Assembly (NCBI RefSeq): GCF_029525575.1
Contig: NZ_JAPDIA010000008.1
Coordinates: forward strand, 806,001-870,000
Reading direction: 5' to 3'
Origin: Cohnella rhizosphaerae
Lineage (GTDB): Bacteria; Bacillota; Bacilli; Paenibacillales; Paenibacillaceae
Length of the DNA: 64,000 bases
The position numbers and the translations under genes were made by a program. Under the pieces are notes generated by a model. It saw nothing but the letters and a program-made list of their open reading frames with translations. It was not told the origin of the DNA and ran no database searches. Of the stretch, positions 24,066 through 48,472 are shown piece after piece (position 1 is the stretch's first letter; every line of letters begins with the position of its first letter).

Positions 24066-24132
24066 ATAGATAAGGTCTATGCCACTTCTCCGATCTATCA
24101 ATTACCTTTATGGTTAGAATTTGATTTATAGT
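24066..24132 (+). promoter_or_regulatory. pgi promoter with LysR-type box
   Basis: ATAGATAAGGTCTAT (24066-24080) is an ATAG-N7-CTAT dyad of the LysR T-N11-A class. It lies 46 nt before a TATAGT -10 (24127-24132), which places its centre near -66. The whole block resembles the zwf promoter at 48406-48472, including a shared ATTAC.T.TATGG.T segment over the -35 region, which itself lacks a consensus hexamer as in activated promoters. Confidence 0.65.
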
Positions 24133-24167
24133 GAATCCAGAGCAAGCGACAAGAGGAGGAGAACCCT

Positions 24168-25508
24168 TTGACCATCCGTTTCGATTACAGCCATGCCCTG
24201 TCCTTTATGCAGCAGCACGAGATCGACTATGCCGCCGAATTCGTGGCCGCCGCGCACCGCATGCTCCACGAGAAGCAAGGCCCGGGTTCGGACTACCTCG
24301 GTTGGGTGGACCTGCCCGCTGCCTACGACCGGGAAGAATTCGCACGCATCAAGGAGGCAGCCGCGAGAATACGCGGCAACTCGGACGCGCTCGTCGTCAT
24401 CGGCATCGGCGGCTCCTACTTGGGCGCCAGGTCCGCGATCGAAGCGCTCTCCCATACGTTCCACAATCAGATGGGAGGCCGCACCCAGGTTTATTTCGCC
24501 GGACAGAACATCAGCTCCACGTATATGGCTCATCTGCTGGAGCTGCTGGAGGGCAAGGACCTGTCGGTGAACATCATTTCCAAATCCGGCACGACGACCG
24601 AGCCGGCCATCGCCTTCCGCATCCTGCGCGATTATATGGAGAAGAAATACGGCAAAGCGGAAGCCCGCAAACGCATCTACGCCACGACGGATGCCGAGAA
24701 GGGCGCGCTCAAGAAGCTGGCGGACGAGGAAGGGTACGAGACGTTCGTCATTCCGGACGACGTCGGCGGACGCTATTCCGTACTGACCGCCGTCGGCCTG
24801 CTGCCGATCGCGGCCGCCGGCCTGGATATCGACCGAATGATGGAAGGGGCGGCCGCGGCGGCGAAAAAGTATGCCGATCCGAACCTCGCCGCCAATGAAA
24901 GCTACCAATACGCCGCGGTCCGCAATGCGCTATATCGCAAGGGAAAAACGATCGAACTGCTGGCCAACTTCGAGCCGTCCCTCCACTACGTCTCCGAATG
25001 GTGGAAGCAGCTGTTCGGCGAGAGCGAAGGCAAGGATCAGAAGGGGCTGTACCCGGCTTCGGTCGACTTCTCGACCGACCTTCACTCCATGGGCCAATAC
25101 GTGCAGGAGGGACGGCGGGATCTGTTCGAGACGGTGCTCGCGGTGAAAAAGGCGCGCGTGGAATGGACGATCGAAGCGGACGAGGGCAATCTGGACGGCT
25201 TGAACTTCCTGGCGGGAATGTCGATGGACGAGGTCAACCGCAAGGCCGCGGAGGGCACGCGCCTGGCTCACGTGGACGGCGGCGTTCCTAACCTGATCGT
25301 CGAGCTGGACGAGCTGAACGAGTATACGTACGGGGAAATGGTCTATTTCTTTGAAAAAGCGTGCGGCATCAGCGGCTTGCTGCTTGGCGTCAACCCGTTC
25401 GACCAGCCCGGCGTCGAAGCGTATAAAGTCAATATGTTCGCTTTGCTGGGCAAACCGGGCTTCGAAGCGAAAAAGGCCGAGCTGCTTAAACGTCTCGGCG
25501 AAGCCTGA
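24168..25508 (+). CDS. pgi: Glucose-6-phosphate isomerase
   Basis: Complete 446-residue enzyme interconverting glucose 6-phosphate and fructose 6-phosphate. Motifs are [15 protein letters not shown] near residue 77, [17 protein letters not shown] near 135, [15 protein letters not shown], and the catalytic-lysine region [15 protein letters not shown] near the C terminus. It has the Bacillus/Geobacillus length. The start is TTG 24168 after the strong site AGAGGAGGAGAA. The frame is intact. A LysR-type box shared with the pentose-phosphate operon sits upstream, linking the two branches from glucose 6-phosphate. Confidence 0.95.
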
Positions 25509-25532
25509 GAAAAGCATTCGCAACGAATCGAC

Positions 25533-25595
25533 GAGACCGACTGTCTGGCGGGTCGTTTCCGAAAGGAAGCACCCGTCCCGCAGACGGTCTCTTCT
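25533..25595 (+). terminator. Terminator after pgi
   Basis: Long imperfect stem with GAGACCG/CGGTCTC ends and inner GTCTG/CAGAC and CGGG/CCCG pairings, followed by TTCTTG. The T tract is weak. Confidence 0.6.
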
Positions 25596-25782
25596 TGCAT
25601 TCAAGAAGGAATGACTTGCGCCCTTCGCGCGTTGGAGCCATGAGAAGGATGCCTCCATGATACAATACCGTATAAAATGAACCGAATTTGCAATCGATCC
25701 GCCGGCTCTCGCAGTCTAAAATAAGGGAGGAAACGACGAACAGGCTTGACCACAATCGATACCTAAAGGGGATAATTGAATC

Positions 25783-26818
25783 ATGTTGAAGGTTGGCGTT
25801 ATCGGAACGGGCGGCATTTTCAAATTCGCGCATTTGCCGGGCTGGCTGTCCCACAAGGAAGTGGAGCTCGTCGCTTTTTGCGACGCCTTCCGCGCTTCGG
25901 CCGAGTCCGCTGCGCTCGCTTTTCCCGGGGCGAAGGTATACGAAGATTATCGCGAGCTGATCGCGGACCCGTCGATCGATATCGTCGGCATCAGCACGCC
26001 CAACCTGTACCACTCGGAGATCGCGATCGCGGCGCTGCGCAAGGGCAAGCATGTATTCTGCGAAAAGCCGGACGCGGTCAACGCCGAAGAGGCGCAAAAA
26101 ATGGCGGACGCCGCGCGCGAATCGGGCAGGCTGCTCATGACGATGCGCAACAACCGTTTTAGCGAAGAGGCGAAGTTCATCAAAAAAGCTGATTACGCAA
26201 GGCAAGCTGGGCGAGATGTACATGGGCAGATGCGGCTGGATCCGCCGCCGAGGCATTCCAGGGCGCGGCGGCTGGTTTACGACCAAGGGGCTGTCGGGCG
26301 GCGGTCCGCTGATCGACCTTGGCGTGCATATGATCGATATGGCGATGTGGACCGCCGGCAATCCGAAGCCGGTCACCGTGTCGGGCTCCACGTACCGGAA
26401 GTTCGCGGACCGTCCCGACGCCGCCGGCAACGTACCCGAAGGCACGTTCGACGTCGAGGATCTGGCCGCGGGCTTTATCCGCTTCGACAGCGGCGCTTCG
26501 CTTCAGATCGAATTCAGCTGGGCATCGAATATCGAGGAGGAGCAGAAGTTCCTCGAATGGCGCGGCACGGAAGGCGGCTTCAGCCTGATCAACGACAAAT
26601 TGAAGCTGTATACGGAAAAGGAGGGCGTGCTGATCGACGAGCAGCCGAGGTTCCCGGAGGCAGCAGTTCCGCAGCATACGGCCAACATCCGTCACTTCGT
26701 CGAATGCGTGCTCGGCCACGAGTCTCCGATTTTCTTGCCCGAGCACGGCGTGGATATGATCAAGATTTTGTCCGCGATTTACGAATCCGCCGAGCGCGGA
26801 CAAGAGATCAGACTCTAA
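25783..26818 (+). CDS. Gfo/Idh/MocA-family oxidoreductase
   Basis: Predicted NAD(P)-dependent sugar or cyclitol dehydrogenase of about 344 residues. The Rossmann motif VGVIGTGGIFKFAHL is at the N terminus, and GKHVFCEKPDAVNAEEA carries the family's conserved EKP. After the frame break at A6 26182-26187 (one extra A) the substrate domain continues with GGGPLIDLGVHMIDMAMW, which has the usual DxGxHxxD motif. ATG 25783 follows AAAGGGG, and a strong terminator follows the gene, so it is probably transcribed alone. The substrate is unknown. Confidence 0.82.
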
Positions 26819-26860
26819 ATACGCGTCTTGGCTGTTCCTTCTCGCTAACGTCAACCCGGT

Positions 26861-26899
26861 CCCCCGTCATTCGCCTTCAGGCGAACGATGGGGGATTTT
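26861..26899 (+). terminator. Terminator after the oxidoreductase gene
   Basis: A 15-bp stem with one mismatch, CCCCCGTCATTCGCC paired with GGCGAACGATGGGGG, has a TTCA loop and is followed by ATTTT. Confidence 0.8.
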
Positions 26900-26998
26900 G
26901 CTGCGGGATGCCCGACGTTCGATCGGGGCAAATTAAGCGGGCCCGATCATAATCATAAGCCGTGAGTGCTTCATGCCTAACGAAGGGAGGCCCGCCCC

Positions 26999-27347
26999 AT
27001 GAAATTTCTGTTGAAGTGGCTCGTGAACGGCACCATCGCGACGACTTTGCTTATGTATTACTCCAATGCCTCGTTCCTTGGCTCCGTGACGACCGCGACG
27101 ATTCTGACGATCATCGCGTACATGGTCGTCGACCAGATTATTTTGCGGTCCACCAACAACTTAATCGCGACCGTATCCGATGGCATCCTGGGCTATCTGG
27201 TGCTGTGGGTTGCGGCATCCACGATGAAATGGACGATCAGTCCGGGAGAAATTTTTATCGTCGCGCTCATTACCGGCATCGCCGAATTTTTTTATTCACC
27301 GCTATGTTTTTCAGGCCGAATCGTCATACCAACGCCAGCGCGCTTAA
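26999..27347 (+). CDS. DUF2512 membrane protein
   Basis: Predicted small membrane protein of about 115 residues with four hydrophobic segments. The start KFLLKWLVNGTIATTLLMYY and the middle AYMVVDQIILRSTNNLIAT, then SDGILGYLVLWV, match DUF2512 proteins found across Bacillales. One extra T in T7 27287-27293 breaks the frame near the end. Correction yields the tail EFFIHRYVFQAESSYQRQRA and a TAA at 27345. ATG 26999 follows AAGGGAGG. The function of the family is unknown. Confidence 0.75.
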
Positions 27348-27429
27348 TCGCAGCCGGCATTCCTAAACGACCGCGCGCGCGAAGATAGCCGTATCCGCGC
27401 TAGATTCTGGCTTTAAAAAAAGCGTTTTT

Positions 27430-27462
27430 ATGCCCGCGCTACGGCGCGGGTATTATTTTTTT
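27430..27462 (+). terminator. Terminator after the DUF2512 gene
   Basis: CCCGCGC (27433-27439) pairs with GCGCGGG (27444-27450) around TACG, followed by ATTATTTTTTT. Confidence 0.8.
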
Positions 27463-27753
27463 ATAATCACTGACCGTATCTGTCAGCGTTAAGGGCTTAT
27501 ACTTCTGATCGTTGGACCGGTTAGAGATCGCGGGCCAGTCATGGATAAACGGCGATTCGCTTCGTTTCTCCCTGACGCATCAAGCGCATCGTCGCGGACA
27601 GATGACCGTCCTGATGAGACAAGCCGGACTTCGGCCGCCAGGTTTGTACGGACCGATCTACGAGGTTTGGATCGCGCAGGGAATGGCGCCTCGCGCTTGA
27701 TTGACTTACAATAGAAAGAAAACGGTTCATGTCAACCGGAAGCGGGTAGCGCC

Positions 27754-28752
27754 ATGACCAAGGCGGATAACATGCTGTCGATCTTGTGGATGCTCCGGTC
27801 CGGCAAGCGCAAGACGGCGAAGCAGCTGGCGGAAGCGCTCGATATTCACGTGAGGACCGTCTATCGGTGCATCGATTCGCTCTGCGCGAGCGGCGTGCCG
27901 ATCGTCGCGGAGTCGGGGCCGAACGGCGGATATACGATTCTGAGCCGCTTTGCCGATTCCCCGCTCGTCTTCGACGCCGAGGAGCAGAAGAGTCTGATCC
28001 ATGCCGCCATATTCGCCAAAGAAGCCGGCTATCCGCATACCGAAGCGCTGGACCGCGCGACGGACAAGCTGAAGCAATACGCGAACGAAGCGCAGCTTGA
28101 GGCGCTGGAACGGCACGGCGGTGGGCTGTCGGTCATTTATCCCCCGCTGGACGGCGCATTCCGGTCCTACTTGCAGAAGCTGGAGGAGGCCGCCGGACAG
28201 GGACGCACGGTGGAAATGACGTACGACAAGGGCAGGGGCGAGCCATCGCCCCCGCGCTTGTTCGATCCTTACGGCATCGTGTATTGGAAAGGAAACTGGT
28301 ATGCGGTCGGACATTGCGGATACCGGGACGAAGTCAGAAGCTTCCGGGTCGACCGCATACGCGGGCTTCGTCGGACGGACGGACGCTTCGAACGCCCGGA
28401 GTCCTTTTCCGCAAAGGACTACTTGCTCGGACAGCTGCTTCGCGATTCCGCGGAGGGGACGAGTTGGGAGACGGTGAGCATTCATGGTCAGGAGCAAGCG
28501 CTGAACGAACTGTGCCGGCATTGGCTGTTCGGACACGCGCTTACCTGCCGCGAGCCGGAAAAGGCGACCTTTAAGCTCGAGCGGTCGACGCTGACGACGT
28601 ACGTGCCCTATTTTTTGATGCCGTACGGGACGGCTTTGCGGATCGAATCGCCGCTGCTGGTTCGTCGAATGCGGGAGGCGGGTGCCAAACTTCTTGCCCA
28701 CTACGAACAAATGGAGCCTGTCAACGATAACGGAGAGGGAGATGACGAATGA
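27754..28752 (+). CDS. YafY-type HTH/WYL-domain transcriptional regulator
   Basis: Predicted 332-residue regulator. An N-terminal helix-turn-helix (KTAKQLAEALDIHVRTVYRCIDSLCASG, residues about 20-47, cited as a landmark) is followed by the PNGGYTI turn that ends the HTH_11 wing. The WYL domain occupies residues about 145-225, with DPYGIVYWKGNWYAVGHC and VRSFRVDRIRGL. WYL proteins sense small ligands or nucleic acid. The stop overlaps the next start as ATGA, so it is translationally coupled to a small monooxygenase. The frame is intact. Confidence 0.85.
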   Translation: MTKADNMLSILWMLRSGKRKTAKQLAEALDIHVRTVYRCIDSLCASGVPIVAESGPNGGYTILSRFADSPLVFDAEEQKSLIHAAIFAKEAGYPHTEALDRATDKLKQYANEAQLEALERHGGGLSVIYPPLDGAFRSYLQKLEEAAGQGRTVEMTYDKGRGEPSPPRLFDPYGIVYWKGNWYAVGHCGYRDEVRSFRVDRIRGLRRTDGRFERPESFSAKDYLLGQLLRDSAEGTSWETVSIHGQEQALNELCRHWLFGHALTCREPEKATFKLERSTLTTYVPYFLMPYGTALRIESPLLVRRMREAGAKLLAHYEQMEPVNDNGEGDDE

Positions 28753-29051
28753 GCAAATTCGCGATGTTCGGAAAGTTGACGGCCGTGCCCGGAAAACGCC
28801 GGGAGCTCGCCGATATGATGCTGGCGTCCGACGATACGTTGAGCGAAATGGAAGGGTGCATTTATTATATTATCCACGAAGCCGAGGAAGAGCCCGACGT
28901 GCTGTGGATCACAGAGCTGTGGGAGAGCCGGGAAGCGCATGCGGCCAGCTTGCAAAACGAGCAGGTTCGCGAGCTGATCGGCCGCTGTCGGCATCTGATC
29001 GCGAATGCGGGAGGCATTAAAGTCAAGCCGCTCGGCGGCAAAGGATATTAA
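28749..29051 (+). CDS. ABM-domain putative quinol monooxygenase
   Basis: Predicted 100-residue dimeric ferredoxin-like protein of the antibiotic biosynthesis monooxygenase family. The typical pattern is present: FAMFGKLTAVPGKRREL, then GCIYYIIHEAEEEPDVLWITELWESREAH (partial landmark), where the ...YxxxxxxxxP...W.xxEx(W)xs motif is clear. Members such as YgiN act on quinols, while others cleave heme. Coupling to a WYL regulator through an ATGA overlap suggests a small redox-response operon. The frame is intact. Confidence 0.8.
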   Translation: MSKFAMFGKLTAVPGKRRELADMMLASDDTLSEMEGCIYYIIHEAEEEPDVLWITELWESREAHAASLQNEQVRELIGRCRHLIANAGGIKVKPLGGKGY

Positions 29052-29201
29052 TGTACCTTCCGATCCTGAGCGAAGGGGATACCGTTAAAACCTCGAAAAG
29101 CGACGTGAAACGCACCCCGTAGACTACAACAGACTTTGGAATCAAACAACCGGCGGCTGACCAAGACTTGTAAAATAAGTATTGGACTTCCGCTGTTGTC
29201 G

Positions 29202-29396
29202 TTAAACCTTAATAACTTTATCAAAACAGTAAGAATCTCTGTCATAGCCATTACGCTCATAGAAAGCATGAGCACCAGTTCGCTTCATCCCCGTACACTT
29301 CGTAACCGTGCGTACGCCAAGCACCTCGCTCCATAAGAAAACAACCTCGGCATAATCTTCTGCTTCAACTTCTCGTATTATAATTTCCATGCTCAT
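29202..29396 (-). pseudogene. GNAT acetyltransferase remnant
   Basis: The first 30 residues (EIIIREVEAEDYAEVVFLW) look like the start of a GNAT N-acetyltransferase. They are joined directly to a typical GNAT C terminus, AHAFYERNGYDRDSYCFDK. At 64 residues it is less than half the usual 140-170, and the acetyl-CoA-binding middle is missing. The likely cause is an internal deletion. It is probably non-functional. Confidence 0.5.
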
Positions 29397-29575
29397 CCCC
29401 CAATCTACAACTTTACGGCTAAATGAACATCATACGACTATTGTCATGACATCGTCCATGGATGCATGTTGATTCGAGTGCCGACCAGGGACCTGGGAAG
29501 GTAATGCGGAAAGGTGCGAATTGGAACTGTTGCGTGGTCGCATTGAATAGGGGAGAGTGGGGAGTGGGGGAGAGC

Positions 29576-29755
29576 GGACTCAGGGGACGCTATTTCGTAA
29601 AAATCGGTCTCTTTCGCGATCGTTTCGGACAGGAGGGACGTTATGTGCCGCCCTCAGTGAAGAATCGAGCCGAAACGGTCTAAATAACGGCCACTGGGTC
29701 CGATCGTGGGCCGCGAATCGCGATATGAGCAAGGATTGCGTCTCCTCGGTCCGCT
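29576..29755. repeat. Dispersed intergenic repeat, copy 1
   Basis: The first 69 nt, beginning GGACTCAGGGGACGCTATTT, match 54665-54732 at roughly 80 percent of positions. Further on, AAATAACGGCCACTGGGTCC (29682-29701) and GATTGCGTCTCCTCGGTCCG (29734-29753) are related shorter units in the opposite orientation, so the element could fold into hairpins. It is non-coding and lies between unrelated genes. Confidence 0.6.
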
Positions 29756-29890
29756 CTAAGCCCTGGTGCGAAAACTTCTCGGCCACAGACGGCTTTAATC
29801 GGCACCGCCGGAAGGGGTTATAACTTTATTTATGTCATGAAAAGTAACATAAAGAGCACTCTCTGCTCTGCATCCGCTTTCACCAATAAA

Positions 29891-29904
29891 TGTAAGCGAA
29901 CACA
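29891..29904. promoter_or_regulatory. Candidate CcpA cre site
   Basis: TGTAAGCGAACACA differs from the catabolite-responsive consensus TGWAANCGNTNWCA at one position. It lies about 140 nt upstream of the sugar-binding protein gene, a sensible place for carbon catabolite control of this operon. Confidence 0.45.
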
Positions 29905-30045
29905 ACGCTTCTTTTCATTGTCGAATCCGAACAACAGGCAAAAATAAGCTAATAAAAACAATTTGCGGCCATTTGAATGTGATTTAAATTTACATAATAT
30001 GAGGTTAGGCCAGACAACAAGCTGAAACGGGGAGAGATACGAGAG

Positions 30046-31371
30046 ATGAAAAAGAATGTAGCGGCAACTATGGCAATGGCACTTGGCGTCGGACTGCTGG
30101 CGGGCTGCGGAAGCGGCAGCGACGATACGAACGCATCGGCATCTTCGCCTGCGGCAAGCGCATCGGGATCCGCAGCGGCAAGCCCTTCCGGCTCCGCAGC
30201 GAGCGGAGAAGCGGCAGAGGGCAACCTGAAGGGTACGATCACCTGGGCGACGCACCGTACCGAGCTGGTCGATACCGACCTGAAGAAGTATGTGGATGCG
30301 TTCGAGGCGAAGTACCCGGGCACGGAGGTCAAGATCGAAGGCCTCAAGGATTACGAGCAAACGATCCGCGTGCGCATGGCGGCGAACGAGCTGCCGGACG
30401 TGCTGTCGCTCGTCGAAACGACGAAGTCGGACCTGCCGAAGTTTTACGAGCCGCTCGACGATCTCGGCCTCACCGACAACATTTACTTCAAAGACTACAA
30501 TTCCTATGAAGGCAAGCTTTACGGCATTACGCAGCAGGTCGCGATCAACGGTCTGCTCTACAACAAGCAGGCATTCGAGAAAGCCGGCATCGCCGCGCCG
30601 CCGAAGACGCTGGACGAGCTGTACGCGGACGCGGACAAGCTCAAAGCCGCGGGCATCGTCCCGATGGCGACGGCGTTCAAGGATGCCTGGACGCTGCAGT
30701 ACTGGACGGATCCGGCCGAGTTCATCTACGGCAGCACGAACCTGCGCAACGACAAGATCAACTCGGACGCGCCGTTCACGGTAGACGGCCCTTACGGGCA
30801 AGGCCTCGGTATTCTGAAGAATTTGTTCGACAAGGGCGAGCTGGAGAAGGACGTATACTCCGCGACGTGGGACCAAACGCAAAAGGATCTGGCCTCGGGC
30901 AAAGCCGCTATGATGTACATCGGCAACTGGGCGATCTCGAACCTGATCAACAACGGTCTGCCGCTTGAACAAATCGGCTTCGCGCCGCTGCCGTACGACA
31001 ACAGCGGCACGGTCAAAGGCATGATGCGCAACGACTGGGCATACGCCGTCAGCTCCACGAGCAAAAACAAGCCGCTCGCCAAAGCGTTCATCAAGTTCAT
31101 GATCGAGGAATCCGGCGACTATGCGGATCACATGATCATCTCGCCGCTTAAGGACCAGCCGCAAGACCTGGCGCCGATCGCAGACTTCATGGCGAACAAG
31201 CCGGAAATGCTTGAAGCGCAATCGGTGAGCGAGCAAGTGACCGCGGTCGAGAACAAAATGCAATTCGATACGTTCAAGTTCATTCAAGAAGTGACGGTCG
31301 GCAAAATGCAGAGCGTGTTCGACAACTACAATAAAAAATGGAAAGCAGCGAAAGCCGCCGTCGCGAAGTAA
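30046..31371 (+). CDS. ABC transporter extracellular sugar-binding lipoprotein
   Basis: Family 1 extracellular solute-binding protein of 441 residues. The signal peptide ends in a lipobox, GLLAGCGSG, with the lipidated Cys near residue 21, followed by a low-complexity Ser/Ala/Gly linker. The mature domain has AFEAKYPGTEVKIEG, NGLLYNKQAFEKAGI and ASGKAAMMYIGNWA motifs of sugar-binding proteins. ATG 30046 follows GGGGAGAG. Two permease genes follow after a hairpin; no ATPase gene is present, as is usual where a shared MsmX-type ATPase serves. With the GH35 enzyme downstream, a galactoside-containing oligosaccharide is the likely ligand. Confidence 0.92.
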   Translation: MKKNVAATMAMALGVGLLAGCGSGSDDTNASASSPAASASGSAAASPSGSAASGEAAEGNLKGTITWATHRTELVDTDLKKYVDAFEAKYPGTEVKIEGLKDYEQTIRVRMAANELPDVLSLVETTKSDLPKFYEPLDDLGLTDNIYFKDYNSYEGKLYGITQQVAINGLLYNKQAFEKAGIAAPPKTLDELYADADKLKAAGIVPMATAFKDAWTLQYWTDPAEFIYGSTNLRNDKINSDAPFTVDGPYGQGLGILKNLFDKGELEKDVYSATWDQTQKDLASGKAAMMYIGNWAISNLINNGLPLEQIGFAPLPYDNSGTVKGMMRNDWAYAVSSTSKNKPLAKAFIKFMIEESGDYADHMIISPLKDQPQDLAPIADFMANKPEMLEAQSVSEQVTAVENKMQFDTFKFIQEVTVGKMQSVFDNYNKKWKAAKAAVAK

Positions 31372-31403
31372 GCAAGCGACAAGCTCCGCAGCCCGATTCC
31401 GAC

Positions 31404-31443
31404 CGACAAAACGGATGGCCGGTCCGCGCCGTCCGTTTTGTCG
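31404..31443 (+). terminator. Intercistronic hairpin between binding protein and permease
   Basis: Perfect 12-bp arms CGACAAAACGGA/TCCGTTTTGTCG enclose a 16-nt GC-rich loop. There is no proper T tract, so it may act as an attenuator or as a 3'-end stabiliser that keeps the binding protein in excess over the permeases. Confidence 0.65.
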
Positions 31444-31476
31444 TCTCTCGCGTGCGGATGAAAGGAGTTGAATCGG

Positions 31477-32364
31477 ATGACCGAAAGCCTATCGTATGCC
31501 AAACAGAAGAAATTGCTGATCATCCTGTTTTTGCTCGTGCCGATCGTTTTGCTGGCGATGTTCGCCCTGTACCCGGCCCTTTATCTGGTCTACCTCAGCT
31601 TCATGAGTTGGGACGGCTTCAGTCCCGATAAGACGTGGGTCGGCGTCGGCAATTATAAAGAAGTGTTCGAAAACAAGGAAGTCTGGGCGGCCTTCCTCCA
31701 CAATCTCGTCTATCTCGGCTGGGGTCTTTTCCAGAACGCGCTCGGTTTGTTTTTCGCGCTGCTGCTCAATTCGCAGCTCAAGGGCCGCAACGCCTACCGG
31801 GTTATGCTCTTCATGCCCTATATCATGAACGGCGTCGCGGTCGCTTACATGTTCAACTACGTGTTCAACTCGGAGTACGGCTCCTTCAACACGCTGCTGC
31901 GCAGCGTAGGGCTCGACTCGCTCGCGATCAGCTGGTTCGGCTCGCCGCACGCGGTCAACCACGTACTCGGCTTTATCACGCTGTGGAAGTTCATGGGTTT
32001 GAACATGGTCATTTATCTGGCAGCCCTTCAGTCGGTTCCGTCGGAAATCATCGAGGCCGCGCGCATGGACGGCGCGTCTCGCCTGCAGACTTCGCTGCGC
32101 GTCGTCCTGCCGAATATAACGAAGGTGATCGAGCTCAACCTGTTCCTGACGATTATCGGCACGCTCGAGATTTTCGACCTGCCGTTCATTCTGACGGGCG
32201 GCGGACCGCTCGGCGCCAGCGAGACCTTCCTGACCAAGACGATCGATACGGCGTTCAAGTTCAACAATTTCGGCATGGCCTCCGCGATGAGCGTCACCTT
32301 GATCGTCGCCGTCATCGTCGTGCTCAGCATTCAGCGGTTTGCGACGAGGAGGTGGTCGGATTGA
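31477..32364 (+). CDS. ABC sugar permease, MalF-like
   Basis: Predicted 295-residue inner-membrane permease with six transmembrane segments. The cytoplasmic EAA loop that contacts the ATPase is EAARMDGASRLQTSLRVVLP. ATG 31477 has AAAGGAG 9 nt upstream. Its TGA stop overlaps the TTG start of the second permease. It forms the transport channel with the next gene, for import of the sugar delivered by the upstream binding protein. The frame is intact. Confidence 0.9.
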   Translation: MTESLSYAKQKKLLIILFLLVPIVLLAMFALYPALYLVYLSFMSWDGFSPDKTWVGVGNYKEVFENKEVWAAFLHNLVYLGWGLFQNALGLFFALLLNSQLKGRNAYRVMLFMPYIMNGVAVAYMFNYVFNSEYGSFNTLLRSVGLDSLAISWFGSPHAVNHVLGFITLWKFMGLNMVIYLAALQSVPSEIIEAARMDGASRLQTSLRVVLPNITKVIELNLFLTIIGTLEIFDLPFILTGGGPLGASETFLTKTIDTAFKFNNFGMASAMSVTLIVAVIVVLSIQRFATRRWSD

Positions 32365-33194: not shown

Positions 33195-33231
33195 CGTTAC
33201 TTGCCAGGGCGGACACGGAGGGATACGACGG

Positions 33232-40022: not shown

Positions 40023-41673
40023 AACCCGCTGTTTGAGTTCGCTGTCCAAGGTGTTCCCCGATGCGGAGCCGGCTTCTGCCGAACGATCGGGGTTCGGCTC
40101 CGCGCTGCGGGGGGAGCATTTTTCGTTTCAGATCGCCTACAGGGCGCCGGAGCTGACGCGTACCGCGAAGGTATGCGTGAGCGTCGCCGCGCCGGGGCTT
40201 GAAGGCAAGATCGCAGTCAAAGCCGTCGGACTCGCGCCGTCTGCGCTGCCTTGCTACGGAGATCCGGACGACGATATCTTGCGCGGCGTCCCCGGCTTAT
40301 ACCCGGACCCGCTTCTGCCGCTCGGACCGGACGACATGGTCAAAGTGCCGCCGCGTCAGTGGCGGTCGCTTTGGATCGAAGCCGCGATCGGCCGAGACGC
40401 CCGGGCGGGCGCGCACGCGATCGAGATCGCGTTCGTCTCCGAGGCGGGCGAATCGCTTGCGCATGAGGTGTTCGCGCTGGAGGTCATACCTGCCGAGCTG
40501 CCGGAGCAGGAGCTGATCCATACCGAATGGCTGCATGCCGATTGTCTCGCCACGGAATACGGGGTCGATATTTTCAGCGCCCGGCACTGGGCGCTGATCG
40601 AGGCTTATGTCGGTACCGCTGCGAAGCATGGCATGAACATGCTGCTCACGCCGCTCTTCACGCCGCCGCTCGACACGGCGGTCGGCGGCGAGCGGCCGAC
40701 GGTCCAGTTGGTCGACGTCCGGCTGGAGGGGGACGTTTACCGCTTCGGCTTCGACAAGCTGACCCGCTGGATCGAGATGGGCTTGCGCAAAGGCATCCGA
40801 TACTTTGAATTTTCCCACCTGTTCACCCAGTGGGGCGCGAAGCATGCCCCGAAGATCGAGGCGCTGGCGGAAGGCGTGCCGATCAAGCTTTTCGGCTGGC
40901 ATACGGATGCGGCCGGCGCGCCGTATCGCCGGTTTCTAGACGCTTTTTTGCCGGAGCTCGTCGCATATATCCGCGCGCGCGGGTTGGAAAACCGCGTCTA
41001 TTTCCATGTGTCCGACGAACCGCACGAGGCCGACGTGGAATCGTATCGCGCCGCATCCGACATCATGCGCAAGCATATGTCCGGATTTCCGATCATCGAC
41101 GCACTGTCCGACTTTGCGTTCTACGAGCTTGGACTGGTGGGGCAGCCGATCCCGTCGAACGACCGGATCGATCCGTTCCTTGCGGCCGGCGTGCCGGAGC
41201 TATGGACTTATTACTGCTGCTCGCAATACAAGGACGTCGCGAACCGCTTCTTCGACATGCCTTCCGCCCGCAGCCGCGTTCTGGGCCTTCAGCTGTATAA
41301 GTTCGGCATCAAGGGCTTCCTGCACTGGGGCTTCAATTTCTGGTACGAGCAGTATTCGAAGCGGCCGATCCGGCCATTCGAGGTGACCGACGCGGGCGGC
41401 GCTTTTCCGTCCGGGGACGCTTTTCTCGTGTATCCCGGCAACGAAGGCGACGGCCCGGTCGAGTCGATCCGGCTCAAAGTGGTGCGCGAAGCGCTCCAGG
41501 ACCAGCGCGCCTTGCAGCTGCTCGAGCGGCTGACGGGCCGCGATGCGGCGATCGCGCTGGTCGAGCGCGATCTGGATGAACCGCTCACGTTTGCCGCGTA
41601 CCCGCGCGATGCGGCCTGGCTGCTGCGCAGGCGGGAACGAATCAATCAAGCGATCCGGGACGCCTTGCGTTAA
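40000..41673 (+). CDS. DUF4091 glycoside-hydrolase-like protein
   Basis: Predicted 557-residue cytoplasmic protein. An N-terminal beta-sandwich (residues about 1-170) is followed by a TIM-barrel-like region with TEWLHADCLATEYG, GIRYFEFSHLFTQWGAKHAP and VYFHVSDEPHEADVESY, and a DUF4091 C-terminal part with QLYKFGIKGFLHWGFNFWY and FLVYPGNEGDGPVESIRL. These features mark a family held to be glycoside hydrolases of unknown specificity. ATG 40000 follows GAGGAGG and overlaps the PLP-enzyme gene. It is the last gene of the operon as far as seen. The frame is intact. Confidence 0.82.
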   Translation: MTEKIAIETRCLSSLSKVFPDAEPASAERSGFGSALRGEHFSFQIAYRAPELTRTAKVCVSVAAPGLEGKIAVKAVGLAPSALPCYGDPDDDILRGVPGLYPDPLLPLGPDDMVKVPPRQWRSLWIEAAIGRDARAGAHAIEIAFVSEAGESLAHEVFALEVIPAELPEQELIHTEWLHADCLATEYGVDIFSARHWALIEAYVGTAAKHGMNMLLTPLFTPPLDTAVGGERPTVQLVDVRLEGDVYRFGFDKLTRWIEMGLRKGIRYFEFSHLFTQWGAKHAPKIEALAEGVPIKLFGWHTDAAGAPYRRFLDAFLPELVAYIRARGLENRVYFHVSDEPHEADVESYRAASDIMRKHMSGFPIIDALSDFAFYELGLVGQPIPSNDRIDPFLAAGVPELWTYYCCSQYKDVANRFFDMPSARSRVLGLQLYKFGIKGFLHWGFNFWYEQYSKRPIRPFEVTDAGGAFPSGDAFLVYPGNEGDGPVESIRLKVVREALQDQRALQLLERLTGRDAAIALVERDLDEPLTFAAYPRDAAWLLRRRERINQAIRDALR

Positions 41674-41841
41674 CGCGACGATGGGCGAACCGCCCGGCTC
41701 ATGCTGCGTCTATCAGCCGTCTATCACTTTTCTTCTATTGAATGGGAAGAGCTGGCGATCTATGATAGCAGTAGAATCGATCGTCCTATGATCGGTCTCA
41801 AACGCAGCGATAGCGGACAACGCGAGCCGGGAGGCGGAACT

Positions 41842-43921
41842 ATGAAAATACGCAATGGGGCAATAACGGCCCTGCTGGCGTTGACGGTGCTGGCCGGATG
41901 CAAAGACGGCGGCAGCGATAACCTGACGCCCGAGCCGACGCCGGAGCCGACGGCCGAAGACGCCATCGGCGCTTATCTCAAGGATTGGCAGCAGCTCGAT
42001 TATGCGGGCATGTACGCGATGCTGACGCCCGATGCGAGGGCCAAGCTGACCGCGGAGCAGTTCGCCGAGCGCTACGGCAAAATATACGAGGGCATCAAGG
42101 CGTCGAAGCTGGAGGTCGAGGATGTCTCCCCGTCGCCTGCCGGCTCTCCTTCGGCGGCGCCGTCCGCGACCGCTTCGGCCGGTCCGGTCGTTCAAAAATT
42201 TCAGTATTCCGTTCAAATGGAGACGATCGCCGGGCCCGTCGCCTTCAAGCACGAAGGCACGGCGCGGAAAACGCTGGATGGCGAAGCGCAGAAGTGGCGG
42301 ATCGACTGGGATACGTCCATGATCTTCCCGGAGATGAAGGATGGGGACAAGGTACGCGTTCAGACGCTCGCCTCCGAGCGGGGCGAGATCGTCGACCGAA
42401 CGGGCGAAGGCCTCGCCGTGAACGGCTCGGCCCCCCCAGCTCGGCATCGTGCCCGGCCAGCTCGGAGACGATCCTGCCTCGGTCAAAGCTCAGGTCGCCG
42501 CCAAGCTGGGCATTACCGTAGCGGATATCGATCGCAAGCTCGGCGCTTCCTGGGTCAAGCCGGAGTTGTTCGTGCCGATCGGCGTCGTGGACGAAGCCGA
42601 TATGGCTGCGTTCGACAACGTGCCCGGCGTCGTCTTTCAGCAGAAAAAGCTTCGCGAATACCCGCTCGGCGAAGCCGCCGCCCATCTGACGGGCTATGTC
42701 GGAGAGATTAACGCCGAGCAGCTGGAGCGCCTGAAGGACAAGGGCTACAAGTCCGGCGACGTCATCGGCAAGGCGGGACTGGAGCAGGTGCTTGAGGACA
42801 AGCTGAGAGGAACGGCCGGCGTCGTCGTCGCGATCGAAGACGCCGCCGGCCAGCGGAAGGCGGTGCTTGCCGAGAAGGCTGCCGTGCCGGGAACTTCGTT
42901 TCAGCTGACCGTGGACGCGGGCTTGCAAAAAACGATTTACGACGAGATTAAGGCGGATGCTTCGTCGGCTGCGGCGATCGAGCCCCGGACCGGCGAGGTG
43001 CTGGCGCTGCTCAGCAGTCCGTCGTACGATCCGAACGCCTTCGTGCGCGGCCTGTCCGCCAAGCAGTACGCATCCTGGAACGACGATCCGCGCCATCCGT
43101 TCCTGAACCGGTTTTCCAAAGGCTACGCGCCCGGATCTTCGTTCAAGCTCGTCACGGGGGCGATCGGGCTGGACGAGGGGACGCTCGATCCGAATAAGGG
43201 CGTGGACATCTCCGGCTTGAAATGGACGAAGGACGGCTCGTGGGGCAGCTATTACGTGAAGCGCGTGCATGCGGTCAATCCGGTCGATCTGTCCAAGGCG
43301 TTAACTTACTCGGACAACATCTACTTCGCGCAGGCGGCGCTGGCGCTGGGCAAGGACAAGTTCGAGTCGGGCGCCGCCAGATTCGGCATCGGCGAGGCAA
43401 TCCCGATCGCCTATCCGCTGGCCAAGTCGCAGCTGTCGAACAAAGGCATTAAAGGCGAGATCCAGCTCGCGGATTCGGGCTACGGTCAAGGCGAAGTGAC
43501 GATGACGTCGCTTCACGTGGCGCTCGCCTTCTCGGCTGTCGTGAACGGCGGCAATATCGCCTATCCGCGGCTGACGCTGGAGGACGATCCGGATTCGCCG
43601 CAAATATGGAAGGCGGCCGCGATGACGCCCGAAGCGGCGGACATTCTGAAGAAGGATCTCGTCCAGGCGGTGACGAGTCCGGAAGGCGTCGGTCACGGCG
43701 CCTATATTCAAGGGGCGGCGATCGCGGGCAAGACGGGCACCGCCGAGCTCAAGGCGAGCAAAGGCGTCAAGGGCGAGGAAAACGGCTGGTTCGTCGGCTT
43801 CGACGCGAACGATCCGAAGCTGCTGCTGGCCGTTATGGTCGAAGGCGTCAGCGGGCGCGGGGGCAGCACGTACGTCACGCCGATGGTCAAACGAATTTTT
43901 CAGCAAGCGATGAAAGGCTGA
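41842..43921 (+). CDS. Class B penicillin-binding protein with NTF2-like domain (PbpC/PBP3-like)
   Basis: Predicted lipoprotein transpeptidase of about 692 residues. The lipobox is LTVLAGCKDG. An NTF2/MecA_N-like domain spans about residues 35-160, then comes a dimerisation domain with ASERGEIVDRTG. The transpeptidase has SSFK near residue 431 (GYAPGSSFKLVTG), SDN near 490 (TYSDNIYFAQ) and KTG near 629 (IAGKTGTAEL). The frame is broken by one extra C in C7 42431-42437. ATG 41842 follows GGGAGGCGG. The gene's 3' end overlaps the convergent FHA gene by 35 nt. It cross-links peptidoglycan outside the membrane. Confidence 0.88.
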
Positions 43922-44588
43922 GCACGAAGCCTTTTCCGCGTACGTTTTCGATGGCGAGGACGGGACCCGTTTTTTTGCGGATGCGGTAAAGAAGGGAGTT
44001 GATCTCTTCGGCGCCGGCCTCGGGGCTCCCGTCTTCGCCTGTTCGTTCAGGCCACACATAGCGGGCGATTTCTTCTTTTCCGACGAATCTCCGTTCCCTT
44101 CGCAGGAGCAGCTCGACGCATCTGAACTCCTTATCCGTAAACGAAAAGGGCGTGCCGTTGACGGTGAGCACCTGCCGGATCGGATCAAGCGCGATATCGT
44201 TCGATTCGGCGACCGGTAGCGCGGCGTCGCGTTCGAGCTCGATCTCCATCGTATCCCCCCAGCTTCGATCGGCAAAGGAAAGACATACCGCGCCTTTGGA
44301 GAACGCGACGATGTCGGAGGCGCGAAGAACGACAGGCTCGAACGGCGTCAATCGGATTCCGTTCACCTCGGTGCCGTGTTTGCTGTTGCGGTCCGTTATT
44401 TTGCAGATGCCTTTTTCGCAAGCGATCTCGGCATGCTTTCTCGATACGTAAGCATTGTCGAAGCCGATATCGGGCGCCCATTCGGCGTCTCGGCGTCCGA
44501 GTATGACGATCGGCCGGGCAAGCATCAGCATTGCGCCCTCGTCATGCGGATATCCGCGAAGAACGACGAGGCAGGGAGATGGATTCAT
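43887..44588 (-). CDS. FHA-domain protein with OmpR-type winged helix
   Basis: Predicted 233-residue cytoplasmic protein. The FHA domain covers residues about 20-95: VILGRRDAEWAPDIG, then NAYVSRKHAEIACEKG (SRKH core) and NSKHGTEVNGIRL (the NGxxV/T region). A DNA-binding winged helix like the C-terminal domain of OmpR response regulators follows (DKEFRCVELLLRRERRFV, EINSLLYRIRKKTGPVLA, VRGKGFVL). ATG 44588 is preceded by GAGGTG; longer starts lack a ribosome site. It could couple Ser/Thr phosphorylation to transcription. It converges with and overlaps a penicillin-binding protein gene. The frame is intact. Confidence 0.78.
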   Translation of the reverse strand: MNPSPCLVVLRGYPHDEGAMLMLARPIVILGRRDAEWAPDIGFDNAYVSRKHAEIACEKGICKITDRNSKHGTEVNGIRLTPFEPVVLRASDIVAFSKGAVCLSFADRSWGDTMEIELERDAALPVAESNDIALDPIRQVLTVNGTPFSFTDKEFRCVELLLRRERRFVGKEEIARYVWPERTGEDGSPEAGAEEINSLLYRIRKKTGPVLAIENVRGKGFVLSLSSLAEKFV

Positions 44589-44772
44589 TTGGCTGCACCT
44601 CGAATACGGTCTGGGTTTAAATCGATCACATAGGTAAGACGAACGTCGCGGAGGGCAGGTTTCGATCGGCAACCGATATAAGTACGATCGGCTTAGTCAC
44701 AAAATAGATTGTCGATAATGTTATGGGCAGGGGCTGCGACGGCGCGGACCCCAGGAACAGGAGGGTATCGAT

Positions 44773-45730
44773 GTGAAAATCGTCGTGCTGGACGGTTATA
44801 CGCTTAATCCGGGCGATCTGTCCTGGAGCGGGTTCGAGCGTTTGGGCCAAGTGGAGGTATACGACCGGACGGCATCCGAGCTCGCGGTTGAACGCGCGCG
44901 CGAGGCGCGCGTCGTGCTGACGAACAAGACGCCGGTTCCCGCAGAGCTGCTGGAGAAGCTGCCTGCGCTCGAATATATCGGCGTGCTGGCGACCGGTTAC
45001 GACAACGTCGACGTACAGGCGGCTGGCAAAAGAGGTATCGCCGTTACGAACGTACCGGGTTACGGAACCGAATCGGTCGCTCAAACTGTATTTGCCCTGC
45101 TCCTCGAGCTTTGCCAGCATGTCGGACTGCACGATCGCTCCGTCAAGGCGGGGGGATTGGGCGGACAGTCCGGACTTCAGCTATTGGAAAACGCCGCTTA
45201 CGGAGCTGAGCGGCAAGACGTTGGGAATCGTCGGCTACGGCCGGATCGGCGAAGCGGTCGCGCGCATCGCGCATGCCTTCGGCATGAAGGTGGCGGCGAA
45301 CAAGCGTCATCCCGACGGGCCGCCGCCGTTCGAAGGCTTTGAGTGGACGGACTTGTCCGAGCTGCTGGAAAAGTCGGACGCGATCAGCTTGCACTGTCCG
45401 CTTACGCCGGAAACGGAAGGCATGATCAACCGCGACAGCCTCTCTCGAATGAAGCGATCCGCCTTCTTGATCAATACGGCACGCGGACGCTTGATCGCGG
45501 AGCGGGATCTCGCGGATTGCCTGAACGCGGGCGGCATCGCAGGCGCAGGCCTGGACGTCCTGTCCGCGGAGCCTCCGCCGGCGGACCATCCGCTGTTGTC
45601 GGCCGCCAACTGCATCATCACGCCGCACCAGGCCTGGGCCACACGCGAAGCGCGAGCGAGACTGATGGAGACGGCCGTCGCCAATCTGGAGACGTTCTTG
45701 GCGGGGAAGTCGGCCAACCGAGTGGTGTGA
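44773..45730 (+). CDS. D-2-hydroxyacid dehydrogenase (NAD-dependent)
   Basis: Predicted 318-residue enzyme of the D-isomer 2-hydroxyacid dehydrogenase family, closest in look to hydroxypyruvate/glyoxylate reductases. The NAD motif is LGIVGYGRIGEAVARIA near residue 147. Catalytic residues are Arg in NTARGRLI, Glu in AGLDVLSAEPP and His in NCIITPHQAWAT. One extra G in G6 45150-45155 breaks the frame; correction gives AGDWADSPDFSYWK. The start is GTG 44773 after ACAGGAGGG. A 51-bp tandem repeat follows. The exact substrate cannot be fixed. Confidence 0.85.
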
Positions 45731-45740
45731 GGGGAGGGGC

Positions 45741-46080
45741 GGACTTTTTGGTCCTAACCGAGACTTTTCCGCCAGAGTGACGGCGGGTGCGACACGATTT
45801 GTTTCTATTTGAGACTTCTTCGCCGGAGTGGCGGTGGGTGCGGCGTGGTTTGTTTCTACATGAGACTTCTTCGCCGGAGTGGTCGCGAATGAGTCGTGGT
45901 TTGTTTCTAACCGGGACTTCTTCGCCCTAGTGATGGTGGGTTCGGCACGGTTTGTTTCTAATTGAGACTTCTCCGCTGGAGTGGCGGTAGGTGCGGCGTG
46001 GTTTGTTTCTACCTGAGATTTTTCCGCCAGAGTGACGGTGTGAAAGCCGGGTTTGTTTCTGTCAGGGGACTTCCTCGCTG
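45741..46080. repeat. 51-bp tandem repeat, about 6.5 copies
   Basis: The landmark TTTGTTTCT recurs at 45798, 45849, 45900, 45951, 46002 and 46052, so the period is 51 bp with one 50-bp step, and a diverged copy starts near 45747. Each unit reads about GTTTGTTTCTA..TGAGACTT followed by CTTCGCCGGAGTGGCGGTGG and a variable tail, with a short CGCC/GGCG dyad. The array fills the space between a dehydrogenase and a marR gene; stops and unit divergence argue against coding. Confidence 0.85.
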
Positions 46081-46104
46081 TACTTGTTGTCGTAAGCTAA
46101 CCTA

Positions 46105-46141
46105 AGCCTTGCCGTACGATGGCAGAGGCTTTTTTTCTTTT
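46105..46141 (+). terminator. Terminator after the tandem repeat
   Basis: AGCCTTGCC and GGCAGAGGCT form a stem with one bulge around GTACGAT, followed by TTTTTTTCTTTT. It would end the dehydrogenase transcript beyond the repeat array. Confidence 0.8.
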
Positions 46142-46152
46142 AAGGAAAGGGT

Positions 46153-46215
46153 TTGACTAAATAACAAGGTACCTGTATTATAAATAACAAGGCACCTGAA
46201 TATCAGGTTCCTGAT
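46153..46215 (+). promoter_or_regulatory. marR promoter with overlapping operators
   Basis: TTGACT (46153-46158) and TATTAT (46176-46181) are 17 nt apart. Two direct copies of ATAACAAGGYACCTG lie at 46161-46175 (in the spacer) and 46184-46198 (just after the -10). The second runs into two dyads, CCTGAATATCAGG and ATCAGGTTCCTGAT. This layout fits autorepression by the MarR protein. Confidence 0.65.
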
Positions 46216-46237
46216 AAAATTATTGGAGGCTTACGCC

Positions 46238-46921
46238 ATGGAAAATAACCAGTCGAATTTGATGGAGCAGCTGTTCCGCATCGTCATTCTGCTGCGCCGA
46301 TATCAGCACCGCCTGTTAAGGGAGGGCGCGCAGGGCGGCGATCCGCTTCGCGGCCAGGGACGCGTCTTGTCGCTGCTCAAGCTGAAGCCGGAAATTACAC
46401 AAAAGGAGCTGTCCTATCTGCTCGATATGCGCAATCAATCGCTAGGCGAGCTGCTGGGCAAGCTGGAGCGAAGCGGGTATATTACGCGGACGACTTCGGA
46501 GCAGGATCGCCGGGTGATGAACGTGACGCTGACGGAGGCGGGAGCGCAAGCGGCGGCCGAGATCGAGAAGCAGCAGGAGAGTCACAACAAGCTGTTCGAG
46601 TGTCTTAGCGAGGATGAGCAGCTCACGATGGGCGAATATCTGGATCGGTTGATCGGAGAGCTCGAAAGGCAGCTGGTCGGCGAGGAGGACTTTGCGGAAA
46701 GCGGAGACGGTCGCCGCGACGGTCGCGGGCATCATGGACATGGCTTCGGGCCACGAGGCTTCGATCCGCGCGGGAGGGGCCAAAGCGGCCATCCTGGACA
46801 TGGCGGACACCCGGGCCACGGGGACCGCGGCTTCGATCCGAACGGCGGGCGACAACGCCGCCCGTCGTTTGGCGGAGATGGCTGGGGCATCCGCCCGAGA
46901 CCTGGCCGCGATCCGTTTTGA
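46238..46921 (+). CDS. MarR-family regulator with Gly/His/Arg-rich tail
   Basis: Predicted 227-residue protein. Residues 1-145 are a normal MarR winged helix: ITQKELSYLLDMRNQSLGEL is the recognition region and SEQDRRVMNVTLTEAG the wing. The last 75 residues are an unordered tail rich in Gly, His, Arg and Pro (GHHGHGFGPRGFDPRGRG, GHPGHGGHPGHGDRG). Such a tail might bind metal or nucleic acid. ATG 46238 follows TTGGAGG. Upstream dyads suggest autoregulation. No exporter lies next to it; the next gene is a VOC protein. The frame is intact. Confidence 0.85.
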   Translation: MENNQSNLMEQLFRIVILLRRYQHRLLREGAQGGDPLRGQGRVLSLLKLKPEITQKELSYLLDMRNQSLGELLGKLERSGYITRTTSEQDRRVMNVTLTEAGAQAAAEIEKQQESHNKLFECLSEDEQLTMGEYLDRLIGELERQLVGEEDFAESGDGRRDGRGHHGHGFGPRGFDPRGRGQSGHPGHGGHPGHGDRGFDPNGGRQRRPSFGGDGWGIRPRPGRDPF

Positions 46922-47025
46922 ACGACGCCATCTCAATCGGCTTCGAATTCAGCAATCGAAAAGAAACGCCGTCGTTCTCGCAATGGTACACTGTATCCAT
47001 CCGCAACGAAGGGTGGAGGTCGCTT

Positions 47026-47409
47026 TTGAAGCTTTCCCATGTTCGACTGTTGGCGCCGAATATCCATGAATGCTTTTTATTTTACCGCGACATCATCGGT
47101 CTTGAGGTGAGGTACGGTGACGAGACGACGCCTTTTGCGGAGTTTGCCACCGGGGACGTCAGCTTTGCGCTCGAACCGCCGATGGCCGACGCTCCTGCCG
47201 AAGCCTTAGCGAGGACGAAGCCGTTTAGCGGCCGGGATCAAGTGGCGCTCGTATTCCGCGTAGAAAACGTCGATGACGTATATGAGGCGCTGCGTACAAA
47301 GGGAGTCCCTTTTGTTCGGCCGCCGCACGATACGCCTGAATGGGGTCACCGCGTCGCTTATCTTCGCGACCCGGCCGGTCATGTGATCGAGTTGAATCAA
47401 GGTATTTAA
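47026..47409 (+). CDS. VOC-family (glyoxalase-like) protein
   Basis: Predicted 127-residue protein of the vicinal oxygen chelate fold. SHVRLLAPNIHECFLFYRDI opens the first beta-alpha-beta unit with a metal-type His, and AYLRDPAGHVIELNQ ends the second with the usual RDPxGxxxEL and a terminal Glu. The start is TTG 47026 after GGGTGGAGGT; upstream in-frame sequence overlaps the marR tail and is unlikely to be translated. Members include glyoxalases, dioxygenases and antibiotic-binding proteins. The substrate is unknown. The frame is intact. Confidence 0.78.
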   Translation: MKLSHVRLLAPNIHECFLFYRDIIGLEVRYGDETTPFAEFATGDVSFALEPPMADAPAEALARTKPFSGRDQVALVFRVENVDDVYEALRTKGVPFVRPPHDTPEWGHRVAYLRDPAGHVIELNQGI

Positions 47410-47527
47410 CGATATTAATCAAACGAGCGAGCAAGCGGATATCCTTCTGCTTGCTCTTTTTTTGTGCGGATCTCGTCGAATCGAACAGCCGCCGCCGCGC
47501 GGCTCGCTTGTCCCCGACTGCGCCCGC

Positions 47528-48413
47528 TTATTTCACTAGCCCGATAAACGTTTTCGCCGCATTGGAGAGCGGCATATTTCGCATCGTTAACAATCCGACC
47601 TGGGACGGCGGGAGCGGGATGTCGAGCGCCACCTCGAACAGCGAGCCTTCTTCGAGCTCCTTGGATACGAATTCCCGGGTCACGTAGGAGATGCCGAGTC
47701 CGCGCCTGGCGAATTCGATGAGCAGGTCGACGCTGCCGACTTCGATCTCGGGCTTGATGGAATAGCCGTAGTTGTGGAACACCTCGGTAATCGTCATCCG
47801 GGCGCGGCTGTTGCGGGAAAACAGAATGATCGGGTACTGGAGGAGCGCATCGAGCGTCAGCACTTCGTTCTTCAGCTTCGCGTATCTCGCGCCAGCGACG
47901 AAGCAGTCCTGGAGCTGGAAGCTCTCCGTCACCTGGAGCTGCGGATCGACGATCGGCATGCGCACGACGCCGAGATCGATGCGGCCTTCCTTCAAAAAAA
48001 GTAATCACCTCCGGCGTCGTGCCGTGATTCAGATGCAGCTTGACGCCCGGATGAAGCTTGTGGAATTGCTCCAGATAGGGCAGCACGTAATGCTTGAACA
48101 ACGAGTCGCTGCCGCCGATTCGAAGCTCGCCGCTGTCCAGGTTTTTGAGCGCGGCCATTTTTTCCTCCGCCAACGTGATCAAAATCTGCGACTGCTCGAT
48201 GTACGAGTAGAGCACCATGCCTTCCTGCGTCAGCTCGACGCCCTTGGAGTTGCGGTAAAACAGCGAGACGCCGAAGCTTTCCTCGAGCTGTTTGATGGCA
48301 TGGCTCACGCTGGGCTGCGTCAAATACAGCGCCTTTGCCGCTTGCGTCAAACTCCCCGTTTTCGCTGCCCAATAGAACACCTTGTACAGCTCGTAATTGT
48401 TACCCATAGACAT
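47528..48413 (-). CDS. LysR-family regulator divergent from the pentose-phosphate operon
   Basis: Predicted LysR-type regulator of about 294 residues. The N-terminal helix-turn-helix is GSLTQAAKALYLTQPSVSHA near residues 18-37. The co-inducer domain starts near residue 95 (ELRIGGSDSLFKHYVLPYLE) and continues with RIDLGVVRMP and RRGLGISYVTREFV. One extra base in A7 47994-48000 breaks the frame at EVITF; removal restores LKEGRIDLGVV. ATG 48413 follows CAGGAGA. An ATAG-N7-CTAT box overlaps this start codon and lies at -66 of the zwf promoter; the same box precedes pgi. It is a candidate regulator of both. Confidence 0.85.
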
Positions 48414-48472
48414 GGTCTATATCTCCTGTGAAATATATTGATTACTTGTATGGCTTCGATTCGTATTATAGT
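48406..48472 (+). promoter_or_regulatory. zwf promoter with LysR-type box
   Basis: ATAGACATGGTCTAT (48406-48420) precedes TATAGT (48467-48472) by 46 nt, the same spacing as in the pgi promoter. In the 37 nt ending at TATAGTGAA the two promoters agree at about 26 positions. The box covers the start codon of the divergent lysR gene, so binding could also repress that gene. Confidence 0.68.

Follow-up and report, generated by a model that had tools for sequence, protein, structure and literature searches.

The DNA examined here is a 64,000-nucleotide (nt) stretch of Cohnella rhizosphaerae (contig NZ_JAPDIA010000008.1, positions 806,001–870,000), referred to below as the window and taken from an 8.5-Mb genome of the order Paenibacillales. 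Two promoters in the window share a sequence element that resembles the site of a LysR-type regulator. One lies upstream of a gene for glucose-6-phosphate isomerase (pgi), which is the second pgi copy of this genome, and the other lies between a lysR gene and the divergent operon zwf-tkt-tal-gnd of the pentose phosphate pathway. The features concerned are listed here, with positions counted from the first letter of the window.

24066..24080, + strand: LysR recognition box (ATAGA-N5-TCTAT) of the second pgi, assigned by sequence; the element defined below matches here
24097..24111, + strand: putative activation site near −35, a T-N11-A half (ATCA-N7-TTAT) weaker than the box, its centre 31 bp from that of the box, as at zwf; predicted role
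24127..24132, + strand: putative −10 (TATAGT) of the second pgi, at 46 nt from the box
24168..25508, + strand: second pgi, encoding glucose-6-phosphate isomerase, with TTG as start codon; 718 bits with NCBIfam NF010697 (cut-off 443)
47528..48407, − strand: lysR, regulator, split by an indel at an A-run near 47996–48003; Pfam HTH_1 and LysR_substrate on the two pieces
48406..48420, + strand: LysR recognition box on the zwf side, overlapping the start codon of lysR, assigned by sequence
48437..48451, + strand: second half-site (ATTG-N7-GTAT), putative activation site near −35; predicted role
48467..48472, + strand: TATAGT, putative −10 of the zwf operon
48528..50061, + strand: zwf, glucose-6-phosphate dehydrogenase, frameshifted; TIGR00871, 463 bits on the larger piece against a cut-off of 401
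50039..52031, + strand: tkt, transketolase, frameshifted, start set by comparison with locus L113; TIGR00232, 497 bits on one piece, the whole-protein cut-off of 682 not being reached
52086..52752, + strand: tal, transaldolase / fructose-6-phosphate aldolase family, frameshifted; TIGR00875, 206 bits on one piece, the whole-protein cut-off of 246 not being reached
52822..54240, + strand: gnd, 6-phosphogluconate dehydrogenase, frameshifted, end approximate (from the length in L113); TIGR00873, 582 bits against a cut-off of 427

Indels interrupt or split lysR, zwf, tkt, tal, and gnd (47528–54240) as well as the other pgi of the genome (G000:C4:427209-428544). Among the named loci, which are the best 80 of 241 relatives, the nearest are those of Cohnella sp. 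OV330, ginsengisoli, GbtcB17, and JJ-181. The corresponding lysR, zwf, tkt, tal, and gnd are all open in OV330, and the lysR indel of the window lies at a homopolymer. Because the same genes are intact in OV330, the frameshifts are likely to be assembly errors.

With the intact OV330 protein (P0005), the two lysR pieces share 98% and 94% identity. HTH_1 (PF00126) was detected N-terminally with 76 bits and LysR_substrate (PF03466) on the second piece with 99 bits, which are the domains of a LysR protein. As in other LysR systems, the gene is divergent from its presumed target, with a palindromic T-N11-A near −65 and a second site near −35 of the predicted transcription start. A structure prediction from 14 LysR orthologues gave a poor model (mean predicted local distance difference test score 56, predicted template modelling score 0.37), and a search of solved structures (eight sequences at E ≤ 1e-20) returned only general LysR relatives, with no hint of an effector: BenM, CatM, a Rubisco operon regulator, and two 'probable' regulators. 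The protein itself is an ordinary LysR, and it is the regulon that appears undescribed; a literature search, with most subscription journals outside it, found no account of a LysR that regulates zwf or pgi in these bacteria. In the order sample, the orthologue of this LysR was found in 107 of 198 genomes at E ≤ 1e-98; the window's split copy is not counted, and in 19 of the genomes counted the best match is a homologue at 59–63% identity. In the class sample it was found in 12 of 200 genomes, every one of the window's family. Many genomes of another family of the order carry a LysR of about 60% identity (e.g., G270:C42:14853-15710), a few of them beside the 80% orthologue, and this protein is possibly a sister regulator.

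Both boxes lie where the earlier note had placed them, each followed by TATAGT exactly 46 nt on, and the box centre falls near −66, as had been proposed, provided that transcription starts at the predicted position about 7 nt after the −10. ATAG-N7-CTAT occurs at these two places in the window and nowhere else in it, against 0.14 expected from shuffles and two or more in 1 of 100 shuffles. When extended to ATAG-N7-CTAT-N40..52-TATAGT, it again matched only these two sites in the whole genome, with no match for the reversed-pattern control. As a family-wide test, this loose pattern matched 136 of 197 genomes, with many reversed-control matches, and it was dropped because other LysR systems also match it. 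A 46-nt element was composed after inspection of zwf-type and pgi-type sites from a looser pattern scan, and was called with up to three mismatches in genome scans and up to four at named loci. The positions included in this pattern are conserved partly by selection; the outer A/T of the box, the −10, and its spacing lie outside it. In the 8.5-Mb genome, the element (≤3 mismatches) matched the same two sites alone, and its reversed control gave no match. The 15-nt box ATAGA-N5-TCTAT is not specific: the genome has it seven times, twice next to other LysR-like genes. A promoter scan found a consensus promoter at neither the pgi nor the zwf site. In the zwf leader, upstream of lysR on the − strand, there are two overlapping terminator-like hairpins (48486–48510).

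For the 37 nt before TATAGTGAA, the earlier note gave about 26 agreements between the promoters; the actual count is 22 of 37. From the box through TATAGTGAA, 48 of 70 positions are shared, and because the 60-nt flanks agree at just 19 positions upstream and 17 downstream, the similarity ends at the element. The earlier statement that the lysR start codon lies inside one box holds for the first codon of the open reading frame (ORF; 48413–48411) and fails for the ATG common to 14 relatives, which is codon 3 (48407–48405) and straddles the box edge. Part of the conservation on the zwf side is that of the lysR start codon and its Shine–Dalgarno sequence (AGGAG, − strand).

The element and the LysR orthologue co-occur across the family. 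In the sample of 197 genomes, in which orthologues were called at ≥67% identity and the window's split copy was scored as present, 110 genomes had both and 77 had neither, with 3 carrying LysR only and 7 the element only; the reversed-pattern control gave four matches in four genomes (G002, G026, G105, and G153). A Fisher value computed from these counts takes no account of how the genomes are related and is not to be taken as a probability. Within Cohnella, the element was present in 31 of 37 genomes, with one match for the reversed control, and the LysR orthologue was found in none of the four element-less Cohnella searched (six lack the element in total). The gene directly opposite lysR is zwf in 73 of the named loci and tkt in 6, which makes 79 of 80; in the exception (L157), about 6 kb separates lysR from tkt, and the element precedes tkt. 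The element stands at the lysR start in 77 of the 80 loci and elsewhere in the locus in L157, L168, and L178, and in 78 of the 80, the best element has TATAGT exactly 46 nt after its box. The common operon order is zwf-tkt-tal-(pgi)-gnd, with pgi present in 16 of the 80 loci, and in P. psychroresistens (L144), glpX is added downstream of gnd. The check proposed in the earlier note was run: the box is conserved before the pgi and zwf of relatives and co-occurs with the LysR orthologue. Comparative genomics thereby gives good support to its suggestion that a single LysR is probably tied to both promoters.

The element also occurs away from lysR. In neighbourhoods screened for zwf, tkt, tal, gnd, pgi, glpX, orf130, lysR, and ugd, it was found before zwf operons without an adjacent lysR (L108, L109, and L214), before gnd (L209 and L213), before pgi-gnd (L217) and pgi-glpX (L096), before orf130-gnd-pgi (L207) and orf130-glpX (L098, L104, and L206), and before orf130 with no screened pathway gene in the stretch (L205, L208, L210, L211, and L212); in L110, tal faces lysR with the element. 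The identity of glpX was confirmed for L104 (PF03320 and TIGR00330), which the genes in L096, L098, and L206 match at 82–87%. In 24 unlinked sites (L214 excluded), ATAGA-N5-TCTAT and TAT..ATTAC..TAT are retained, mostly together with TATAGT at the same spacing; these sites lack the CTCCT block, which is the lysR Shine–Dalgarno sequence on the opposite strand. Because these sites away from lysR were also examined, the confounding effect of the lysR start is removed. The lysR start codon and AGGAG do fall in the element, and conservation at zwf could in principle reflect these signals alone, with the pgi match arising by chance; we rejected this explanation, which is hardly credible, because both the unlinked sites and the absence of the element elsewhere in the 8.5 Mb contradict it.

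The gene called orf130 encodes a conserved protein of about 130 residues with the element upstream (L104:2205-2600, L206:2200-2595, L205, L207, L208, and L210–L212), and it precedes glpX or gnd in some genomes. Two copies tested had no Pfam or NCBIfam match, and a tentative 'stas' label found no support in either database. We regard orf130 as a candidate new pathway partner. Further sites were seen near other genes. In G121 and G188, a uridine diphosphate-glucose dehydrogenase gene is preceded, at a distance of some 720–780 nt, by a box that has TATAGT 46 nt from it (L102:2000-2721 and L100). On the − strand in G121 (L101:2107), a box with a partial element lies 262 nt before a candidate gene that we take to be 5-enolpyruvylshikimate-3-phosphate synthase-like; the pathway of this enzyme consumes erythrose 4-phosphate. 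Element-like sites in L215 and L216 precede a candidate gene that is presumably chorismate-synthase-like, accompanied in L215 by a separate LysR of 41% identity.

At least one pgi match was present in all 197 family genomes. The paralogue of the window's pgi is a diverged pgi (about 70%), split into two frames at G000:C4, and such a diverged pgi, 68–71% identical to that of the window, is present in 37 of 37 Cohnella genomes. A second pgi, defined by ≥84% identity to the window's gene, was found in 21 genomes (18 of the 197 in the family sample, plus G200, G201, and G207 from a genus search). All 21 have the zwf-side element, and all 18 in the family sample have the LysR orthologue. In 13 of the 21, the second pgi follows the zwf-side element at 4.4–4.5 kb and has the same orientation, i.e., it is in the zwf operon. 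This placement was taken mostly from coordinates; the gene order itself was observed in G200 (L223) and in the 16 named loci with pgi, some of which belong to these same genomes. The remaining eight (G000, G125, G178, G201, G207, G083, G113, and G137) lie outside the operon, each with its own element. The box was found in none of the 21 diverged-pgi loci from other Cohnella (L072–L092), searched with about 1.5 kb of flank on each side, where the best element match had 7 to 11 mismatches.

In a tree of 36 pgi sequences (8 own-box, 17 operon, and 11 of the 21 diverged), the second pgi formed one clade separate from the diverged pgi (support 100/100). The own-box state requires three changes on this tree, two of them forced by well-supported branches, and the tree does not give their direction; we infer that the second pgi left the operon, taking the operator along. 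The likeness of the two promoters over 70 nt (48/70) might instead mean that the zwf promoter was recently copied to pgi and that its presence there has no regulatory significance. This is very improbable, given that identity drops to about 30% directly outside (19/60 and 17/60), and that the operon or own-box state has changed at least two times, with a box in every out-of-operon case.

These results do not agree with the earlier claim that the regulator sets flux between glycolysis and the pentose phosphate pathway: the pgi concerned is the second copy, and the 21 inspected diverged pgi have no box. Because 13 of the 21 second pgi are in a zwf-tkt-tal-pgi-gnd operon in relatives, the second pgi looks like a member of the pathway and not a competing branch. 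Four genomes with no LysR orthologue (G048, G069, G106, and G161) carry a second pgi at 76–82% identity in a different operon, zwf-gnd-like(35–39%)-tal-pgi (L245–L248; another genus of the family), and none of the four 9-kb stretches around these genes contains the box. A second pgi is therefore joined to the pathway even without LysR in some cases, and the box is separable from pgi. An exception to the clean division was seen in G045, which has two pgi copies of about 69% identity, one of them behind an element-led orf130-gnd (L207:1790-4501, G045:C16); this is perhaps a further isomerase copy pulled into the regulon.

The reading we favour, with a probability of roughly 75%, is that one LysR regulon serves an oxidative pentose phosphate cycle. 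Judging from the sequences, the LysR encoded beside zwf would bind a two-part site in the lysR/zwf intergenic region and before the second pgi. One part is the box ATAGA-N5-TCTAT near −66; the other, 31 bp from it, is a weaker T-N11-A half near −35. The sites of LysR activators are usually arranged in this way. Together with a coinducer, the regulator would activate promoters that have a good −10 without a consensus −35. At zwf, the bound LysR may also shut off lysR, and such self-repression fits because the lysR start codon and Shine–Dalgarno sequence lie inside the element. The targets would be zwf-tkt-tal-gnd and the second PGI, together with a class II fructose-bisphosphatase in relatives. 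These enzymes are expected to bring fructose 6-phosphate and triose phosphates back to glucose 6-phosphate, and because they regenerate it, the likely output is a pentose phosphate cycle that yields reduced nicotinamide adenine dinucleotide phosphate (NADPH). A single regulon in which LysR mainly represses zwf and the second pgi until an effector relieves it would suit the overlap of the second half-site with the −35 region, and LysR proteins are capable of repression; it is unlikely, however, considering that the scan gave no consensus promoter at either site and that the layout is the usual one of an activator.

Several points weigh against a single activated regulon. The missing −35 comes from a simple scan and is weak evidence of activation. 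Three genomes (G016, G022, and G030) have LysR without the element, and seven LysR-negative genomes have an element-like match; in G136, the one inspected, one of two element sites has an aroC-like gene on one side and a different LysR, 41% identical, on the other (L215). In G051 and G092, lysR with the element faces other genes, and zwf is elsewhere with its own element (L106, L107, L108, and L109). The 24 unlinked sites were picked for their similarity to the element. Furthermore, a pgi at ≥84% is missing from 95 of the 113 family genomes that carry LysR, which makes pgi an optional part of the regulon. Finally, related LysR paralogues seem to share the half-sites at other genes (L215 and L251), so the box alone cannot name its protein.

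This last point leaves room for another LysR paralogue with the same box preference to bind the pgi site, in which case the two promoters would not form one regulon. ATAGA-N5-TCTAT stands beside other LysR-like genes in the same genome (L251 and L255) and beside the aroC-linked LysR, 41% identical, of a relative (L215). Over the whole element, however, L251 and L255 have 5 to 13 mismatches and L215 has 3, all 21 second-pgi genomes have the zwf-side element with the orthologue in all 18 of the family sample, and the four related pgi in orthologue-less genomes have no box, which makes binding by a paralogue quite improbable, more so than repression by the same LysR.

Beyond the single regulon, we give even odds to a wider proposal, in which Paenibacillales would have a dedicated LysR-governed oxidative pentose phosphate cycle. 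One operator would serve zwf, gnd, tkt, tal, a cycle-specific second PGI, and the class II fructose-bisphosphatase, and it would be kept or regained when members move; orf130 would be a member, and LysR would sense a cycle metabolite or the NADPH output. If the favoured reading is true, a specific regulator can be named for the oxidative pentose phosphate pathway in a large group of soil bacteria, a reason is offered why some of them retain two phosphoglucose isomerases, and the unnamed orf130 is flagged as a pathway partner. The system would also offer a ready assay, in which a single regulator acts through one operator on up to six enzymes and the candidate effectors are few.

Among known systems, LysR-type regulators with divergent operons share the domain order, the divergent gene, the T-N11-A near −66, and the second half near −35 with the system described here. 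The difference lies in the protein's distance from curated models and in the predicted regulon, which is the pentose phosphate pathway. The intact OV330 protein matched 56 NCBIfam LysR models; over the best 25 of them, its top score was 142 bits against a cut-off of 341, and none of these 25 claims it because all scores are far under the cut-offs. The CcpC model (NF058504) gave 48 bits against 400 for the N-terminal piece with its out-of-frame tail, and for the intact relative it was not among the best 25 of 56. CbbR, the Calvin cycle LysR regulator, likewise governs sugar-phosphate enzymes such as transketolase and fructose-bisphosphatase. Its model (NF045990) gave 89 bits against a cut-off of 450, and the mapped targets here, unlike those of CbbR, include the oxidative genes zwf and gnd. 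HexR, a gammaproteobacterial regulator of the RpiR family, controls zwf and other central sugar genes through sugar phosphate sensing, whereas HTH_1 and LysR_substrate were the only domains found in the present protein, with no RpiR-type HTH or SIS domain among them, which places it in a different family. The superoxide response of Escherichia coli differs in that SoxRS consists of AraC/MerR-type regulators, unlike the LysR here, and in that E. coli has one pgi. The metabolic logic is nevertheless similar: in E. coli under paraquat, the activities of glucose-6-phosphate dehydrogenase (2.85 fold) and PGI (1.44 fold) rose together, although the study also reports that flux at the pgi step was reduced (PMC2944137).

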